Shown one piece after another: positions 45,153 to 51,682 of a stretch of 52,919 bases of DNA; within the stretch, counting starts at the first letter, position 1, and every line of letters starts with the position of its first letter. The stretch comes from Cryomorphaceae bacterium. Its GTDB lineage: Bacteria > Bacteroidota > Bacteroidia > Flavobacteriales > Schleiferiaceae. A program made the translations under genes and the position numbers. The stretch lies in assembly GCA_021298655.1 (NCBI GenBank), contig JAJTFK010000006.1, positions 1 through 52,919 of the forward strand, given 5' to 3'. Under the pieces are notes generated by a model, which was not told the origin of the DNA, did not search any database, and saw nothing but the letters and a program-made list of their open reading frames with translations.

Positions 45153-46538
45153 ATGGCACTAATCGCATCGGTATCAGGAATTCGCGGAACCATAGGTGGT
45201 TCTGTGGGCAGCAACCTTACGCCCGTGGACGCGGTGGCCTTCGCCAGCGCCTACGGTCAGTGGCTGCGGGCGCAATCCGCCAGCGATCGCCGACTGCGCG
45301 TGGCCCTTGGTCGCGACGCCCGCGTGTCGGGCGAAGCCTTGAGCGACCTCGTCGTTTCCACGCTCCGATTTCAGGGCATCGACGTGCTCGATCTCGGACT
45401 TTCTACGACCCCCACGGTCGAAATGATGGTGCCCTGGGAGGGCTGCGACGGCGGAATCATCCTAACCGCTTCGCACAATCCGGGGGAGTGGAACGCGCTG
45501 AAGCTGCTCAACGCCCGCGGAGAATTCCTCAGCGCCGAGGACGGGGCCAAAATCCTCGCCGCCCGTGAGGCCGGTCATTTTGAATTCGCAGCCGTTGGCG
45601 CATTGGGCCGCCGAATCGCCGTTACGGACGGCATCGAGCGCCATATTCAGGCCATCCTCAACCTTGATTTGGTCGATGTGGAGGCCATTCGGGCCCGCGG
45701 CTTTGCGGTGGCCCTCGACGCGGTGGCCTCGACCGGCGGCATCGCCATACCCATGCTGCTTGAAGCGCTTGGGGTTCAGCGCATCGAAGGACTGTATTGT
45801 GATCCTACCGGACTTTTTCCACACAACCCCGAACCCCTGCGCAAGCACCTCGACGCAATCTGCGCCCTGGTGCCCGAAACCCGCTGCGACCTGGGTATTG
45901 TAGTGGATCCCGACGTGGATCGCCTGGTCTTTGTTAGCGAAGACGGCGAGCTGTTTGGCGAAGAATACACGCTGGTGGCGGTGGCCGACTACCTGCTCCA
46001 GCACCGCCCGGGTCACGTCGTGAGCAACTTGAGTTCGAGTCGGGCCCTGCGCGACGTCGCCGCGCGCCACGGGTCAACGTATTCGGCGTCCGCGGTGGGC
46101 GAGGTCCACGTGGTCACCGAAATGAAGGCTCGCCAGGCGGTGCTTGGCGGCGAAGGCAACGGCGGAATCATCCTGCCCGAGCTGCACTACGGCCGCGATG
46201 CCTTGGTTGGGGTTGCCCTTTTTCTAACCTATTTGGCCAAAAAGGGCGGAACCTGTTCCGAACTCCGCGCAACGTATCCAAACTACGCCATGGCCAAAGA
46301 AAAAATCGACCTCGAGCCGGACGTGGATACCGATGCCCTTCTGGCTCGCGTGGCCGCCGACCACGCCCACCTCGCTCCGTCGACGATTGACGGCGTGAAG
46401 ATTGATTTTGAAGACCGATGGGTCCACCTGCGCAAGAGCAATACCGAGCCCATTGTGCGTATTTATACCGAGGCCCCGACGCAGGCCGAGGCCGAGACGC
46501 TTGCCGCTGAATTCGTGACTAAATTGGCAGAATCATGA
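45153..46538 (+). CDS. glmM: Phosphoglucosamine mutase (GlmM-type phosphohexomutase)
   Basis: Converts glucosamine-6-phosphate to glucosamine-1-phosphate on the way to UDP-GlcNAc. The 461-residue protein has the phosphoserine loop ILTASHNPGEWNALK (Ser107), the metal loop VVDPDVDRLVFV, the sugar loop GGEGNGGIILPELHYGRDA and the phosphate loop RKSNTEPIVRIY. The EGNGG sugar loop and the length fit the Bacteroidota GlmM/ManB-type group better than the PGM2-like enzyme at 30289; phosphomannomutase activity cannot be excluded. ATG 45153 is the family start (MALIASVSGIRGTIGG), 21 nt after a -7 box; the frame extends 13 codons further up. The stop overlaps the next gene (ATGA). Confidence 0.9.
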   Translation: MALIASVSGIRGTIGGSVGSNLTPVDAVAFASAYGQWLRAQSASDRRLRVALGRDARVSGEALSDLVVSTLRFQGIDVLDLGLSTTPTVEMMVPWEGCDGGIILTASHNPGEWNALKLLNARGEFLSAEDGAKILAAREAGHFEFAAVGALGRRIAVTDGIERHIQAILNLDLVDVEAIRARGFAVALDAVASTGGIAIPMLLEALGVQRIEGLYCDPTGLFPHNPEPLRKHLDAICALVPETRCDLGIVVDPDVDRLVFVSEDGELFGEEYTLVAVADYLLQHRPGHVVSNLSSSRALRDVAARHGSTYSASAVGEVHVVTEMKARQAVLGGEGNGGIILPELHYGRDALVGVALFLTYLAKKGGTCSELRATYPNYAMAKEKIDLEPDVDTDALLARVAADHAHLAPSTIDGVKIDFEDRWVHLRKSNTEPIVRIYTEAPTQAEAETLAAEFVTKLAES

Positions 46539-47377
46539 ACATCCGCCCCGGACTTATTCAAGGATTGGACCAGCTAGCGTCCAGTGCACAGGCGACCTAC
46601 CTTGGGGCAGATCCCTTTCCGCATATTGTGTGGGATAACTTTTTTGACGCGGACTACCTCAATGGCTTGGCAGAGTCTTTTCCAAACCTCTTTGAGCATC
46701 CTGAGTTGGAGCATTTTAGTAACGCCAAAGAAATCAAGTCGGCGAGCCAGCTAGAGCGCGGCATTCCGCCCCAGCACCTCGAGTTTATTCACTTTCTGAA
46801 CTCAGAGCCATTTATTCGGTTTATTCAAATTTTGACCGGAATTCGAGAGCCCTTAATCGGGGATCCATACCTGCTTGGAGGGGGGCTGCATCAAATAAAA
46901 AAGGGTGGGCTGCTTAAGGTCCACGCGGACTTCAACAAACACCGTATTTTGGATTTGGATCGCCGCATCAATGTCCTGGTTTACCTCAATAAGGACTGGG
47001 GTTCCGACTACGGTGGCCATTTAGAGCTATGGGACTCCAAAATGACACGCTGCGTCGAGAAGGTACTGCCGGTGTTTAACAGAATGGTAGTGTTTTCAAC
47101 TACGGACTTCAGCTACCACGGACATCCTGAGCCCTTGGCCTGTCCCGAGGGCCGTACCCGCAACTCCATTGCGATGTACTACTACAGTAACGGCCGCCCC
47201 AAGAGTGAGGTGGATGTGCAAAACGTAAGTGCCACTACTAAGTTTGTTTCGCGCCCGGATTCCGAGCACGATCGCAAGGCCATGCGCGGTTTTTCTAAGT
47301 CAAACCTTATCGAATGGGCCAAAATGTGCACGCCGCCCATAGTATGGAAGGCCCTGCGGTCTATTAATTCCAAGTAA
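46535..47377 (+). CDS. 2-oxoglutarate/Fe(II)-dependent oxygenase-like protein, compositionally atypical
   Basis: 280 residues. Double-stranded beta-helix ligands are visible: His130 and Asp132 in LKVHADFNKH, a distal His (195 or 197) in DFSYHGHPEP, and an arginine in GRTRNSIAMYYY that would bind 2-oxoglutarate. RINVLVYLNKDWGSDYGGHL is the typical core strand region of 2OG-FeII oxygenases found in surface-polysaccharide and phage gene sets. Substrate unknown. It differs strongly from its neighbours: five 60-base lines I counted gave 60, 45, 42, 42 and 47% GC, against 68% (glmM) and 63% (desulfurase). It overlaps glmM by 4 bp (ATGA) and ends 4 bp before the desulfurase, so it lies cleanly inside the operon. 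Acquisition by transfer is likely. Confidence 0.85.
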   Translation: MNIRPGLIQGLDQLASSAQATYLGADPFPHIVWDNFFDADYLNGLAESFPNLFEHPELEHFSNAKEIKSASQLERGIPPQHLEFIHFLNSEPFIRFIQILTGIREPLIGDPYLLGGGLHQIKKGGLLKVHADFNKHRILDLDRRINVLVYLNKDWGSDYGGHLELWDSKMTRCVEKVLPVFNRMVVFSTTDFSYHGHPEPLACPEGRTRNSIAMYYYSNGRPKSEVDVQNVSATTKFVSRPDSEHDRKAMRGFSKSNLIEWAKMCTPPIVWKALRSINSK

Positions 47378-47381
47378 CGCA

Positions 47382-48512
47382 ATGAGTATTTACCTAGATA
47401 ACGCTGCGACTACGCCGCTTTGCCCCGAGGCCAAAGAGGCCATGGTTGCCGCTCTGGAACTTTTCGGCAATCCCAGCTCGACCCACGCCGAAGGCCGCAA
47501 GGCCAAGGCCCTCGTGGAGCGGGTTCGCAAGGAGCTGGCTGCCTACCTGAACTGCCTTCCGGCCGAGATTATTTTCACGTCTGGGGGGACCGAGGCCGAC
47601 AACTGGGCGCTTCAAGCGAGTGTTGATGTTTTAGGTGTTACAAAATTGTATCACAGTGAGTTGGAACACCATGCGGTTACCCATATGGTCGAAGCGCTTG
47701 CGCCCAAAATTGCCTGCGAACCCATTCCGTTCAACGAGCACGGAGACCACGACCTCGATTGGTTGGAGTCTGCCTTGGCGGCCGACGCCGCTTCGGGACG
47801 CAAGGCTCTGGTAAGCTTGATGCACGCCAACAACGAAATCGGAAACCTGGTCGATTTAGCCCGCCTGTCGGCCATGACGCGCGCCCATGGGGCGATGCTT
47901 CACAGCGATACGGTGCAAACCATGGCGCACCTCAAGCTGGATTTCGCGGCGACGCCCCTGGAGTTTGCGGCCTGCAGCGCCCATAAGTTTCACGGTCCGA
48001 AGGGCGTTGGCTTTGCCTACGTCAAGCAGGGCACCGGAATTCAGCCCTTTATTCGCGGCGGAGCCCAAGAGCGCGGCCACCGCGCGGGTACCGAAAACGT
48101 TGTGGGGATTGCGGGCCTTGGAGCGGCCTTTGCGGCGGCCATGACCAACCTGGAGGCCGATGCCGACCACATGCAACGCGTCAAGTCCCACGCCATCGAA
48201 AAGCTGCGCTCCGCGTTTCCCACGGTTCGCTTCAACGGTCGTTCGGGAGACGTGGACCGCAGCCTTTTTACGGTCCTAAATTTTTACGTGCCCGAACTCC
48301 ACGAGGGAGGCATGCTCAATTTTCAGCTGGACCTCCAAGGCTTTTGCGTTTCGGGCGGAAGCGCCTGCAGCAGCGGGGCCGTAGGGGGCTCGCACGTACT
48401 GGGCGGCCTTAAGTCGCCGGGCGGAACGCGCATCAGCTTTTCGCGCATGACCACGAAGGCCGACATCGACGCCTTCGTTCACGCCCTCCAGAACCTGCCC
48501 AAACTCGACTAG
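47382..48512 (+). CDS. Cysteine desulfurase (NifS/IscS family)
   Basis: PLP enzyme that takes sulfur from cysteine for Fe-S clusters and thio-modifications. 376 residues, with the family opening IYLDNAATTPL, the PLP-binding Lys in SAHKFHGPKG (about residue 202) and the persulfide Cys in SGGSACSSGA (about 329). ELEHHAVTH and MHANNEIGN are also present. The CSSG active-site loop without a long insertion suits a group I or NifS-like enzyme; the exact subgroup is not resolved, so no symbol is given. It follows the oxygenase gene by 4 bp. The final CTAG is shared with the convergent T9SS type B gene. Confidence 0.93.
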   Translation: MSIYLDNAATTPLCPEAKEAMVAALELFGNPSSTHAEGRKAKALVERVRKELAAYLNCLPAEIIFTSGGTEADNWALQASVDVLGVTKLYHSELEHHAVTHMVEALAPKIACEPIPFNEHGDHDLDWLESALAADAASGRKALVSLMHANNEIGNLVDLARLSAMTRAHGAMLHSDTVQTMAHLKLDFAATPLEFAACSAHKFHGPKGVGFAYVKQGTGIQPFIRGGAQERGHRAGTENVVGIAGLGAAFAAAMTNLEADADHMQRVKSHAIEKLRSAFPTVRFNGRSGDVDRSLFTVLNFYVPELHEGGMLNFQLDLQGFCVSGGSACSSGAVGGSHVLGGLKSPGGTRISFSRMTTKADIDAFVHALQNLPKLD

Positions 48513-51500
48513 CGGACCAGGTTCACGGTCCCGAAGAGCGCGCCGTCCTCGGTTTCAAACCGGTAGACATAGGTGTCCTGCTGGGCCGGTTTGCCGTTAA
48601 GGGTTCCGTCCCAAAAGACTTCAAAGGGTCGGTCCGTTTCAAAAACGACGTTGCCAAAGCTGTTGAGTACGGTGAAGTAGTCGTTTTCGAAGCAGTCGTT
48701 CCCCCCGATGATGAGCTCCTCGTTTCGGCCGTCGCCGTTGGGCGTGAAGGTGTTGGGAATCCAAACCCGCTGGTCGTAGCGCAGTATGGCCGACGTGAAT
48801 TCGTAGGGGTAAACGGCGTTGCAGACCGTGTCAATCAGTTCAAGCTTAACCGTGTAGGTGCCCGAAGTCGGAACCCGGTACGTCGTTACGCGGCCGGTGT
48901 CCACCACGCCATTCGGGAAGGTCCACCGAAACCGGTAGTCAATGCTGTCGAGGGTGTAGGTCACGTTTACGCGGATTCGCCCGTCCTTGCAGCTGTCGGG
49001 TGCCACCTTCACGTCGGGGGCGGGCAGGTCCGGGTCGAAAAACACCGACGCGAAGGCCGTATCGGTGGTTCCGCATACCGTATCGCGGACCACCAACCGA
49101 ATCACGTGGGTACCGGGCGCATTAAATCGGTGCACCACGGTGTCTCCGGACTTGGCGGATCCGCCGTCGAAGGTCCATGTCGACTGCTGCGCATCGATGC
49201 TCGTGCTCCAGGCGACAACCTCAAACGTTCGGTCGCAGGCTTTAAATCGATGTTCAAAGCTCGCTTCCGGGAAAATGCCCTGGTCGTGGGTGATGACCAG
49301 CGACGTGGTGTCTTCGATGTCGCAAATCGTGTCAATCGCAGTCAGGCGGATTCGGTAGGTGCCTTTGGTGAAGCGCACCGTGGGTTCAAAAGCCGACGAG
49401 GTTTGTCCGTTGCCGAAGTCCCAAATGAACTTGTTGGCGTTGGCGGAGCCGTTGGTGAACTTAACGATAAGGTCTTCGCAGAGCGTGTCGACGTCGGCGT
49501 CGAAGTTGATGCTGGCGTCGGCGGTCACACTCGTCTCGAAATCGATTTTTATCACCCCGAGGTTGCAGTTGCTCGAATTCCGCGAAGGACCCGCTACGCC
49601 CGGTGTAGTCGGAAAGCTCTGTCCGCCGCAGGCCGCACAAACCGCCTGAAAAATGTTGCCTCGGGGCGAGAAGCGCGAGGTTCCGCCGTCGACGTGCTCG
49701 CTGGACGTGCCCCCAAAGAAGGTGGCGTAGCCGAGGCTTTGGGCGTTTCGGGTGAGCACCATGAAGTAGAAGTCGCTGCCGTCCGTCGTGGGGCGAATCG
49801 CGTTGCTGGAAACGGGCAGGCCGGCCGTAGTTCCGCCGAGCCCGCCGCCGTTTACGCCGCCTCCCCAGCCCGATAGCAGGATGTTGAGGCAATCGTCCAC
49901 ATTAAACGCACTGGGAACCAGGTTGACGATGCTGTTGGACGTTCCGAATCGCGACGAAAAAAGCGTTTGATCCAGGTCGGCATTGAGCTTGTGAATAAAT
50001 TGGCCGCCGCTTGGCGTGCCCCAGGCCCCCGCCGTTTGCGGATAAATTCCCAAACTTTGGCCAAAAACATACACTGCTCCGTACTTATCGAGGTCGATTA
50101 AAAAGGACTGGTCGTTTCCTGAGGTGCCGAGGTAGGTGGCTTTTTCGAGCGTACCCGTACTGCTGAGTCGCGCAATCCATCCGTCCACGCCACCTCGGGC
50201 CGTCGCATGCAGTCCGCCCGTTGTGCTCGGGAAGTTGACGGATCGGGTTCCGCCCGTAACGAAGACTTTGCCGTTTTGGTCTGTTTTGATTCCGTATCCG
50301 GACTCGTGGTTGCTGCCGCCAAGAAGCGTTGCCCACCTCAAGCTGGACAGCGACGGATTCAGCGAAAAGGCGACCGCATCGGTCGAAAGGTTGTTGCCGG
50401 TAGCTCCCGGGAACGACGAGCTCTGGGTCGAAGTGACGACGAATACTTGATCCGTGTTGTCCACAACCACTTCGCCGCGCATCGCTCCCACAAAAGTGGA
50501 TGCGCTCAAGGCACTTCCGCTCGCATTCATTTTGAGGACGAAAAGATCTACGCCGTCCTTGAAGTCAAAGGCAAGGGGCGAACCCGTGGTCCCGTTGACG
50601 GGCGGCCCTCCGTTAAAAGTCACGTCGTAGGCCCCGGCGGTAACCGGGAAATTGCTGGATCCGGTCGTGCCCATAACCACCAATTCGCCCAGGGAGGTTA
50701 CCATCATGGAATGCGGTTGGTCCGGCCCGTTGCCGCCGACGTAGGTTGAATAGAGGCGTTGCGAACCGTTGGCGCTGAACTTGGTCAGGCCGATGTCCAT
50801 GGTCGAAAAGTTGGACGTTGCGTCGTTGTAGCTGGCGTCAAAGGCGCCCGGCGTGGTTGGGTAGCCCACATCAAACACAATTCCCCCGCCGTACAGGTTT
50901 TCTTGGTTGTCGTAGGTCGCCGTGTAGCCCCAGTTGTCGGCTGTTGAGCCCGAAAAACTCGAAAAAACCAAGTTGGGGTCGATGACCAGCGTGTCGCTAC
51001 GGCGGTACGGGCCGAGTTCGAAGGAAACCGTGCTGTCGCTTAGAATGCGGTAGGCGGCCGCAACCGGTGTTTTGCCCGATTTTCCCAGGGTGTAGGCCAC
51101 CGGGCGGTCTTCGATCCACGTGCCCATTGGCGTAGCGAGGCGCAGCGCACCTTCGGCGTCGATTTCGGGTTTTGCGCCGCGAATCCGCAATTGGATTAGC
51201 GACGGGTCGGCCTTGGGTGCTACGCGCCATTCGGACTTCAACCCGGCGTGGGCATGGACGACAAAATCAATGCCGGGGTAGGCGTTTGAAGTGCGCCAGT
51301 CCTCGTATTCCGGAACGTTGGTTGTCCAGTGCGAGGGATCGCTTCCCAAGAGGTAGTGGCGTGGGCTGGGCGTTGCAGCCGACCCCGACGAGGAGGCCTG
51401 CGGGTTGGCGCCCACAAACTCCACAAAAAGAGCGTGGGCGTCGGGCCAGTGCTCGGGCCATTGGGTCGTGGGGTAGTGCGGGTTGGCCACGGCACCTCCG

Positions 51501-51682
51501 CGGTGCTTGGGGTGCACGACCCGAATTCGGTAGCCGTGATCCGTCCAGAAGATGGCGCCGTCCGCGAGCGCAGTTTTGGCGCGGAATCCGCCCGTCCACT
51601 GACCTAAATTGGGCACAATGACCGGCTGGGCGCGGGTCGCCGCGGCGATGGCAAGTAGGGCAAAGAGGTAGTACGGTCGCAC
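48509..51682 (-). CDS. T9SS type B surface protein with SBBP beta-propeller and PKD domains
   Basis: 1057 residues, GTG start. The signal peptide (1-18, ending ATRAQ) is followed by a conserved N-terminal beta domain (PNLGQWTGGFRAKTALADG, LLGSDPSHWTTNVPEYEDW) typical of DUF7948/SBBP-type proteins. SBBP-like repeats (about 240-620) include DNQENLYGGGIVFDVGYPTT and DQNGKVFVTGGTRSVNFPST. PKD-like domains (about 720-980; KFIWDFGNGQTSS, STWTFDGGSAKSG, YRFRWTFPNG) follow. The last 85 residues are the gliding-motility-associated type B C-terminal domain (WIPNTFTPNGDGRNEEL, DTYVYRFETEDG), so secretion by T9SS through the SprF/PorP-type route is expected. A CAACGG segment near residue 680 adds a possible disulfide. 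It follows the methyltransferase gene by 22 bp. Confidence 0.87.
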   Translation of the reverse strand: MRPYYLFALLAIAAATRAQPVIVPNLGQWTGGFRAKTALADGAIFWTDHGYRIRVVHPKHRGGAVANPHYPTTQWPEHWPDAHALFVEFVGANPQASSSGSAATPSPRHYLLGSDPSHWTTNVPEYEDWRTSNAYPGIDFVVHAHAGLKSEWRVAPKADPSLIQLRIRGAKPEIDAEGALRLATPMGTWIEDRPVAYTLGKSGKTPVAAAYRILSDSTVSFELGPYRRSDTLVIDPNLVFSSFSGSTADNWGYTATYDNQENLYGGGIVFDVGYPTTPGAFDASYNDATSNFSTMDIGLTKFSANGSQRLYSTYVGGNGPDQPHSMMVTSLGELVVMGTTGSSNFPVTAGAYDVTFNGGPPVNGTTGSPLAFDFKDGVDLFVLKMNASGSALSASTFVGAMRGEVVVDNTDQVFVVTSTQSSSFPGATGNNLSTDAVAFSLNPSLSSLRWATLLGGSNHESGYGIKTDQNGKVFVTGGTRSVNFPSTTGGLHATARGGVDGWIARLSSTGTLEKATYLGTSGNDQSFLIDLDKYGAVYVFGQSLGIYPQTAGAWGTPSGGQFIHKLNADLDQTLFSSRFGTSNSIVNLVPSAFNVDDCLNILLSGWGGGVNGGGLGGTTAGLPVSSNAIRPTTDGSDFYFMVLTRNAQSLGYATFFGGTSSEHVDGGTSRFSPRGNIFQAVCAACGGQSFPTTPGVAGPSRNSSNCNLGVIKIDFETSVTADASINFDADVDTLCEDLIVKFTNGSANANKFIWDFGNGQTSSAFEPTVRFTKGTYRIRLTAIDTICDIEDTTSLVITHDQGIFPEASFEHRFKACDRTFEVVAWSTSIDAQQSTWTFDGGSAKSGDTVVHRFNAPGTHVIRLVVRDTVCGTTDTAFASVFFDPDLPAPDVKVAPDSCKDGRIRVNVTYTLDSIDYRFRWTFPNGVVDTGRVTTYRVPTSGTYTVKLELIDTVCNAVYPYEFTSAILRYDQRVWIPNTFTPNGDGRNEELIIGGNDCFENDYFTVLNSFGNVVFETDRPFEVFWDGTLNGKPAQQDTYVYRFETEDGALFGTVNLVR

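Follow-up and report, generated by a model that had tools for sequence, protein, structure and literature searches.

The subject of this analysis is a 52,919-nucleotide stretch of DNA from a Cryomorphaceae bacterium (contig JAJTFK010000006.1, positions 1 to 52,919; hereafter the window), in which an open reading frame (ORF) at 46535-47377 on the forward strand, 280 codons long and free of internal stops, encodes a predicted Fe(II)/2-oxoglutarate-dependent oxygenase of the PF13640 family. On balance, the sequence seems best accounted for if this protein is an Fe(II)/2-oxoglutarate hydroxylase with one domain, belonging to a glycan-assembly family that is widespread and found mostly in Bacteroidota, its gene having been gained by horizontal transfer into the junction between glmM and a cysteine desulfurase gene.

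The gene was detected in two of the 22 genomes of the genus (matches at E-values up to 1e-45), these being the host itself (G000; 1.6 Mb in 45 contigs) and G010. Among the 21 other genus genomes, the glmM/desulfurase junction is empty in 15, filled by the oxygenase in one (G010) and not scorable in five. When 60 genomes were compared, with gaps measured between match ends, the two flanking genes were found adjacent within 143 bp, with no room for the oxygenase, in 29; the oxygenase lay between them in two, a gap of about 1.5 kb separated them in nine, they were apart in 12 (which takes in pairs on different contigs), and eight genomes were not scorable. In G001, which shares 97% identity with G010, the junction is empty and the match ends lie 20 bp apart. 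Presence is patchy, with empty sites in close relatives, as is looked for in horizontal acquisition, and the original prediction, which had regarded this as a transferred gene and had proposed a search for relatives in which glmM and the desulfurase adjoin without it, is in this respect borne out. The genomes with the gap of about 1.5 kb are G023, G024, G027, G029, G030, G031, G033, G035 and G040; in the two that were opened (locus L052 from G029 and locus L057 from G027) the filler is a second class-V aminotransferase gene of about 490 amino acids (aa), so that the gene found at this junction appears to vary from lineage to lineage.

The gene tree likewise conflicts with vertical descent. In the tree of glmM and the desulfurase, G010 groups with G001 and G019 (99/99) and G000 falls outside, which makes the two carriers non-sister species. 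In the oxygenase tree, the G000 and G010 proteins are mutual nearest kin (100/100), with a long branch (3.34 changes per site) between them and the resident paralogues. The host genome has such a paralogue (35% identical) at another place, and weaker matches of this kind (34-44% identity) occur in 17 of the 21 remaining genomes of the genus. The two oxygenases are 68.6% identical and their silent codons agree at chance level (67 of 184; chance 69.2), whereas agreement between the same two genomes exceeds chance for glmM (92.4% identical; 215 of 416, chance 172.1), for the desulfurase (85.6%; 149 of 311, chance 130.2) and for the resident paralogue of the same superfamily (91.0%; 145 of 234, chance 117.8). 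Of 53 G000-G010 gene pairs, just one has lower silent similarity than the oxygenase. All pairs were kept in this ranking, six of the 15 lowest shown looking wrong-frame (protein identity below 70%, silent excess above 0.7), and the pair that ranks lower is a 30% match that probably involves a paralogue.

Vertical inheritance, in which the gene already occupied this slot in the ancestor of a nine-species clade and was then cleanly lost from most of the species, would explain why both copies are nearest kin (100/100) with the same left junction. It would need several scarless losses, however, and it sits poorly with silent codons that agree at chance in the oxygenase and above chance in both flanks and in the paralogue, as with the low rank among the 53 pairs. 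The contrast is less sharp than it might be, the silent sites of the flanks being themselves near saturation (for the desulfurase just 149 against 130.2); even so, we consider this explanation unlikely. In approximately unbiased (AU) tests, grouping the carriers with the copy of G025 (another genus of the same family) was disfavoured (p-AU 0.0083), as was grouping them with the resident paralogues (p-AU 0.0275); both values are somewhat generous, since the groups were named after the tree had been seen, and given the long branches the results amount to moderate evidence. Local duplication of the resident paralogue was suggested by the presence of that 35%-identical gene in the host genome, and was rejected on the disfavoured grouping and the long branch; an assembly error was rejected in turn, as a different genome, G010, has the same arrangement. 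Together these last two options are exceedingly improbable.

With these alternatives set aside, acquisition by transfer is supported: the same slot is occupied in non-sister species by proteins of 69% identity with chance-level silent sites, and the alternative groupings are disfavoured, from which it would follow that the slot was filled either twice, or once with subsequent allele exchange through the flanks. The phylogeny proposed as a check by the original prediction thus disagrees between the oxygenase and its flanks, and the contrary outcome, i.e. occupation of the same site across the order with a congruent tree, is not what was found (two of 22 genomes in the genus, and 29 of 60 without room for the gene). 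A search of phage and plasmid collections yielded no donor (best identities 36.7% and 48.5%).

The fit into the operon is as tight as had been claimed. The start codon of the oxygenase overlaps the stop codon of glmM as ATGA (46535-46538), with an identical overlap in G010, and 4 bp (47378-47381) separate its end from the desulfurase ATG at 47382. The right junctions of the two carriers are unlike: the CCCTTG leader (CCCTTGATGAG) that precedes the desulfurase in G010, G001, G017 and G020 is absent from the host, G000. Neither a mobile element nor a repeat was found at the junctions in the window as a mark of horizontal acquisition, and the only repeats seen in G010 were weak, an inverted pair of 20 nt (75%) and a direct pair of 24 nt (71%). 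The identities of the neighbours were confirmed by family models. Upstream, glmM (phosphoglucosamine mutase, 45153-46538, forward strand) matches TIGR03990 with 499.6 bits against a cut-off of 439; downstream, the cysteine desulfurase (NifS/IscS-like, 47382-48512, forward strand) matches PF00266, and its top NCBIfam model is NifS, with a score below the cut-off of that model. Beyond the desulfurase, on the reverse strand at 48509-51682, lies an ORF of 1057 aa with DUF7948, PKD domains and a CHU_C type IX secretion signal domain.

Base composition points in the same direction, less forcefully than the distribution does. The GC content of the oxygenase gene is 50.9% (60.9% at third codon positions, GC3), compared to 62.2% (71.2%) for glmM and 60.5% (71.9%) for the desulfurase. 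It is the minimum-GC 843-bp stretch of the window (sampled every 10 bp) and ranks eighth lowest of 509 called host genes (z -2.57), in a ranking that drew on 705 kb of the host genome; the dip exceeds chance. The drop in GC noted in the original prediction is therefore real, and its depth was overstated: instead of mostly 42-47%, 100-bp windows inside the gene have 45-55% GC, with one at 61%. An initial ranking on 205 host genes had placed the oxygenase second for GC, 12th for GC3 and 17th for codon fit, and among the 509 genes it is 30th for GC3 and 41st for codon-usage fit. The codon-usage comparison that had been proposed was set aside as strong proof of transfer given the rank of 41. The lowest GC of the 205 first-pass genes (42.5%) belongs to a Fic/SoFic-like adenylyltransferase gene in the host genome (L256:14790-15854, G000:C3), which is another candidate transfer.

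The assignment to the Fe(II)/2-oxoglutarate oxygenases is firm at the level of family and fold. The protein scores 67.6 bits against a curated PF13640 cut-off of 27, and both the alignment and the predicted model were built from 90 sequences. The His and Asp of the HxD metal-ligand motif (His130-Ala-Asp132, codons at 46922-46930, forward strand) are present in all 90 aligned rows, as is the distal His195 (47117-47119, forward strand); in the RxS motif for the 2-oxoglutarate carboxylate (Arg209-x-Ser211, 47159-47167, forward strand) the Arg is present in 90 rows and the Ser in 89. The ligand set is thus as intact as first read. The HxD...H triad and the RxS motif align with those of OGFOD1, the roles of whose residues are described in the available part of PMC4396695. 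The structure prediction that had been suggested gave a confident oxygenase-fold model (mean predicted local distance difference test score, pLDDT, 93.7), and this model, with its matches to solved oxygenases, indicates a double-stranded beta-helix fold. Purifying selection is suggested to keep the protein, because 69% identity is retained where silent sites are saturated and because the catalytic residues are invariant. Matches to two more specific NCBIfam models stay far below their cut-offs: 30 bits against 150 for the YhhC cyclophane-peptide oxygenases (NF041706) and 20.9 against 240 for the FlmC family oxygenases (NF052475).

If these residues act as in related enzymes, the protein would bind Fe(II) via His130, Asp132 and His195 and 2-oxoglutarate via Arg209 and Ser211, and would consume O2 and 2-oxoglutarate with release of succinate and CO2. 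The substrate to be hydroxylated would most likely be a sugar (a nucleotide sugar, a lipid-linked glycan or a finished glycan) that decorates the cell surface, and the gene, having entered the glmM/desulfurase junction by transfer, would borrow its transcription from the host operon. Catalysis, the sugar substrate and co-transcription are what we infer from the sequence.

What the oxygenase fold alone can say about the substrate is limited. Among solved structures, the model comes closest to OGFOD1 and Tpa1p (Foldseek E 1.3e-12; Z 21.3, root-mean-square deviation 2.6 A over 211 residues), followed by PHD2 (Z 19.3), PolD (Z 18.7) and PasI (Z 18.3), and since these scores lie close together, the fold cannot separate protein from sugar substrates. 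The best solved matches by both sequence and fold (OGFOD1/Tpa1, PHD2 and a P. putida enzyme solved with EF-Tu) invite the alternative that the protein hydroxylates a proline, lysine or similar residue of a protein, perhaps making or tuning a glycan attachment site. OGFOD1 and Tpa1 carry two oxygenase-type domains per chain, however, and the solved chains have 457-563 residues, whereas the protein considered here has a single PF13640 domain in 280 aa. It shares with these ribosomal prolyl hydroxylases the fold of the catalytic domain and the HxD...H and RxS residues, and differs from them in length, in sequence (about 20% identity) and in that their substrate is a ribosomal protein, uS12, at a proline. 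The matches to PolD and PasI, Fe/2-oxoglutarate enzymes of nucleoside-type natural products, are nearly as good, at 18-20% identity; the PDB entry title of PasI names an octosyl-acid-type sugar phosphate (title only), and PolD is proposed in the available part of PMC5365060 to act on octosyl acid.

The evidence for a glycan-related role comes from the neighbourhoods of relatives. A scan of a genome collection gave 499 relatives, the best 80 of which were kept for neighbourhood counts; 75 of these are Bacteroidota by record title. In 22 of the 80 loci, a homologue of the TMEM260-type protein O-mannosyltransferase lies no more than 7 kb away. Another 15 loci have a Wzy homologue, and among these 15, homologues of the flippase and of the glycosyltransferase of locus L168 occur in 12 and 14, respectively; a flippase together with RmlD is found in 8 further loci, so that Wzy- or flippase-type settings total 23 of 80. 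Over these three settings, 45 of the 80 loci place a close relative near glycan-assembly genes, which is what would be expected of a glycan-cluster oxygenase. TMEM260 was present in 34 of 37 genomes searched, at about one gene per genome; its nearness to the oxygenase is therefore unlikely to be due to chance, although many of the loci are mutually related. In the host genome itself no TMEM260-like gene was found, which may reflect an assembly gap or a loss, while such a gene is present in all but one of the 21 other genomes of the genus. In loci L106, L119, L132, L139 and L143 the oxygenase ORF (longest start) starts 37-38 bp from a divergent TMEM260-type O-mannosyltransferase match, with a SpoU methylase homologue nearby.

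The O-mannosyltransferase homologues near 22 of the relatives would also suit a protein hydroxylase, and mimivirus L230, which combines a hydroxylase and a glycosyltransferase and acts on a collagen-like protein (available part of PMC9614988), is a precedent for such a pairing. The Wzy/flippase and nucleotide-sugar settings are better suited by a sugar substrate, and the protein-hydroxylase explanation, although the leading alternative, is rated as rather unlikely.

A domain tally of neighbours agrees with glycan assembly. It covered 140 of 143 neighbours (three being dropped for size) from 37 of the 80 loci, hand-picked to thin near-copies, and 140 control ORFs from 20 stretches placed at round coordinates in genomes of the family and the order. 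TMEM260 and GT1 (PF13692) were each matched 7 times and GT2 4 times among the neighbours of the relatives, while among the controls GT2 was matched twice, and TMEM260 and PF13692 were outside the 25 families listed by VIA-align, which does not in itself rule them out; in these tallies, as in the viral one below, families counted may share one protein. The Sinorhizobium and Allocoleopsis relatives are found among glycosyltransferase and polysaccharide genes, glycosyltransferases lie near the Ruegeria relative, and the neighbours of L094, L100 and L117 include glycosyltransferases. L117 (Pelagibacteraceae bacterium AG-410-N23) is a 55%-identical relative following a LepA gene and a family 17 glycosyltransferase match, on a long branch that makes its place in the tree unsure.

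Viral relatives add to this picture. From 35 of 60 viral loci, 126 neighbours were tallied (near-copies, weak matches and ORFs of at least 1200 aa being left out), with matches to GT2 (9), Epimerase (7), GDP_Man_Dehyd (6) and DegT (3), those to Epimerase and GDP_Man_Dehyd probably falling largely on the same proteins; the viral relatives thus lie close to nucleotide-sugar genes. In two viral loci a single ORF contains both the oxygenase and a GT2 domain (L183:4962-6824 and L186:1560-3413; 620 and 617 aa). These ORFs resemble mimivirus L230 in joining a 2-oxoglutarate hydroxylase and a glycosyltransferase in one chain; L230 differs in being PLOD-like, with its hydroxylase C-terminal and a collagen-like protein as substrate (PMC9614988, available part). 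Another GT2 gene adjoins each of the two fused ORFs. A Streptomyces phage relative lies beside a glycosyltransferase-methyltransferase-glycosyltransferase run, and the nearest predicted viral structure is that of a 616-aa protein named, by name only, GDP-mannose 4,6 dehydratase. On another viral contig a single ORF (L226:4139-5125) combines a 2-oxoglutarate oxygenase domain with DUF6817.

The position next to glmM contributes little to this. In general, glmM serves to supply uridine diphosphate N-acetylglucosamine (UDP-GlcNAc), and the original prediction had placed a possible hydroxylation of a surface glycan or lipid beside UDP-GlcNAc synthesis. Of the best 80 relatives, however, only L092, from the same genus, has glmM or the desulfurase nearby, so that the operon position seems to be a convenient insertion site with ready transcription rather than a clue to the pathway, and adjacency to glmM is not supported as a functional clue. 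What supports a glycan-related role is the neighbourhoods of relatives and the two fused ORFs, and the link to glmM has no part in it. Nothing was found in favour of the other possibility that had been raised, a sulfur or amino-sugar intermediate as substrate.

A number of observations weigh against the combination of glycan hydroxylation and transfer favoured here. The gene itself is not located in a glycan-assembly cluster, its flanks being glmM and the desulfurase, and in the window no glycan-polymer gene adjoins it; no direct or inverted repeats were found across its junctions in the window. The closest solved structures are prolyl hydroxylases, which act on proteins. None of the three glycan settings is present in 35 of the 80 loci, and the neighbours of L099 (the nearest relative outside the genus by tree path), L093 and L105 are a peptidase and DUF3667, a transporter and a PorP protein, while the annotated genes adjoining the Sphingomonas and Variovorax relatives are not glycan genes. 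The Variovorax relative lies upstream of a polyketide synthase, which, with the weak match to the peptide-maturation oxygenase YhhC and a superfamily chemistry that is broad, leaves some room for action on a lipid, an antibiotic or another small metabolite, in which case the place in the operon would be uninformative on the pathway. Against this stand the recurrent glycan settings and the two fused ORFs, and such a substrate is improbable.

Compared with its annotated homologues, the gene taken alone is ordinary, i.e. a transferred accessory oxygenase of the common PF13640 family. The Allocoleopsis (WP_015211535.1) and Sinorhizobium (QND35924.1) proteins, both annotated as '2OG-Fe(II) oxygenase' (PF13640), are 48.5% and 41.6% identical over 93% and 99% of the oxygenase, respectively, and their genes lie among glycosyltransferase, flippase or exosortase-associated genes, whereas the window gene lies between glmM and the desulfurase. 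In the literature searched, the family was nowhere described as hydroxylating glycans, and no member characterised as doing so came up, which is not proof of absence.

The finding may mean more at the level of the family and of the junction. As a tentative possibility that goes well beyond the reading favoured above, the junction could serve the genus as a cassette slot, where a surface-glycan hydroxylase would come and go cleanly in the form of diverged alleles, through recombination in the flanking housekeeping genes, so that an operon that is itself not variable would give surface variation. The family, for its part, could be a class of glycan hydroxylases that has yet to be described and is coupled, throughout Bacteroidota, to O-mannosylation of the TMEM260 type and to Wzx/Wzy assembly. 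The recurrence of an Fe/2-oxoglutarate oxygenase family near O-mannosyltransferase and polysaccharide-assembly genes, together with its fusion to a glycosyltransferase in viral ORFs, makes sugar (or glycoprotein) hydroxylation in Bacteroidota directly testable, and the pattern of diverged alleles in the same slot illustrates on a small scale how housekeeping flanks may allow the exchange of an accessory gene.

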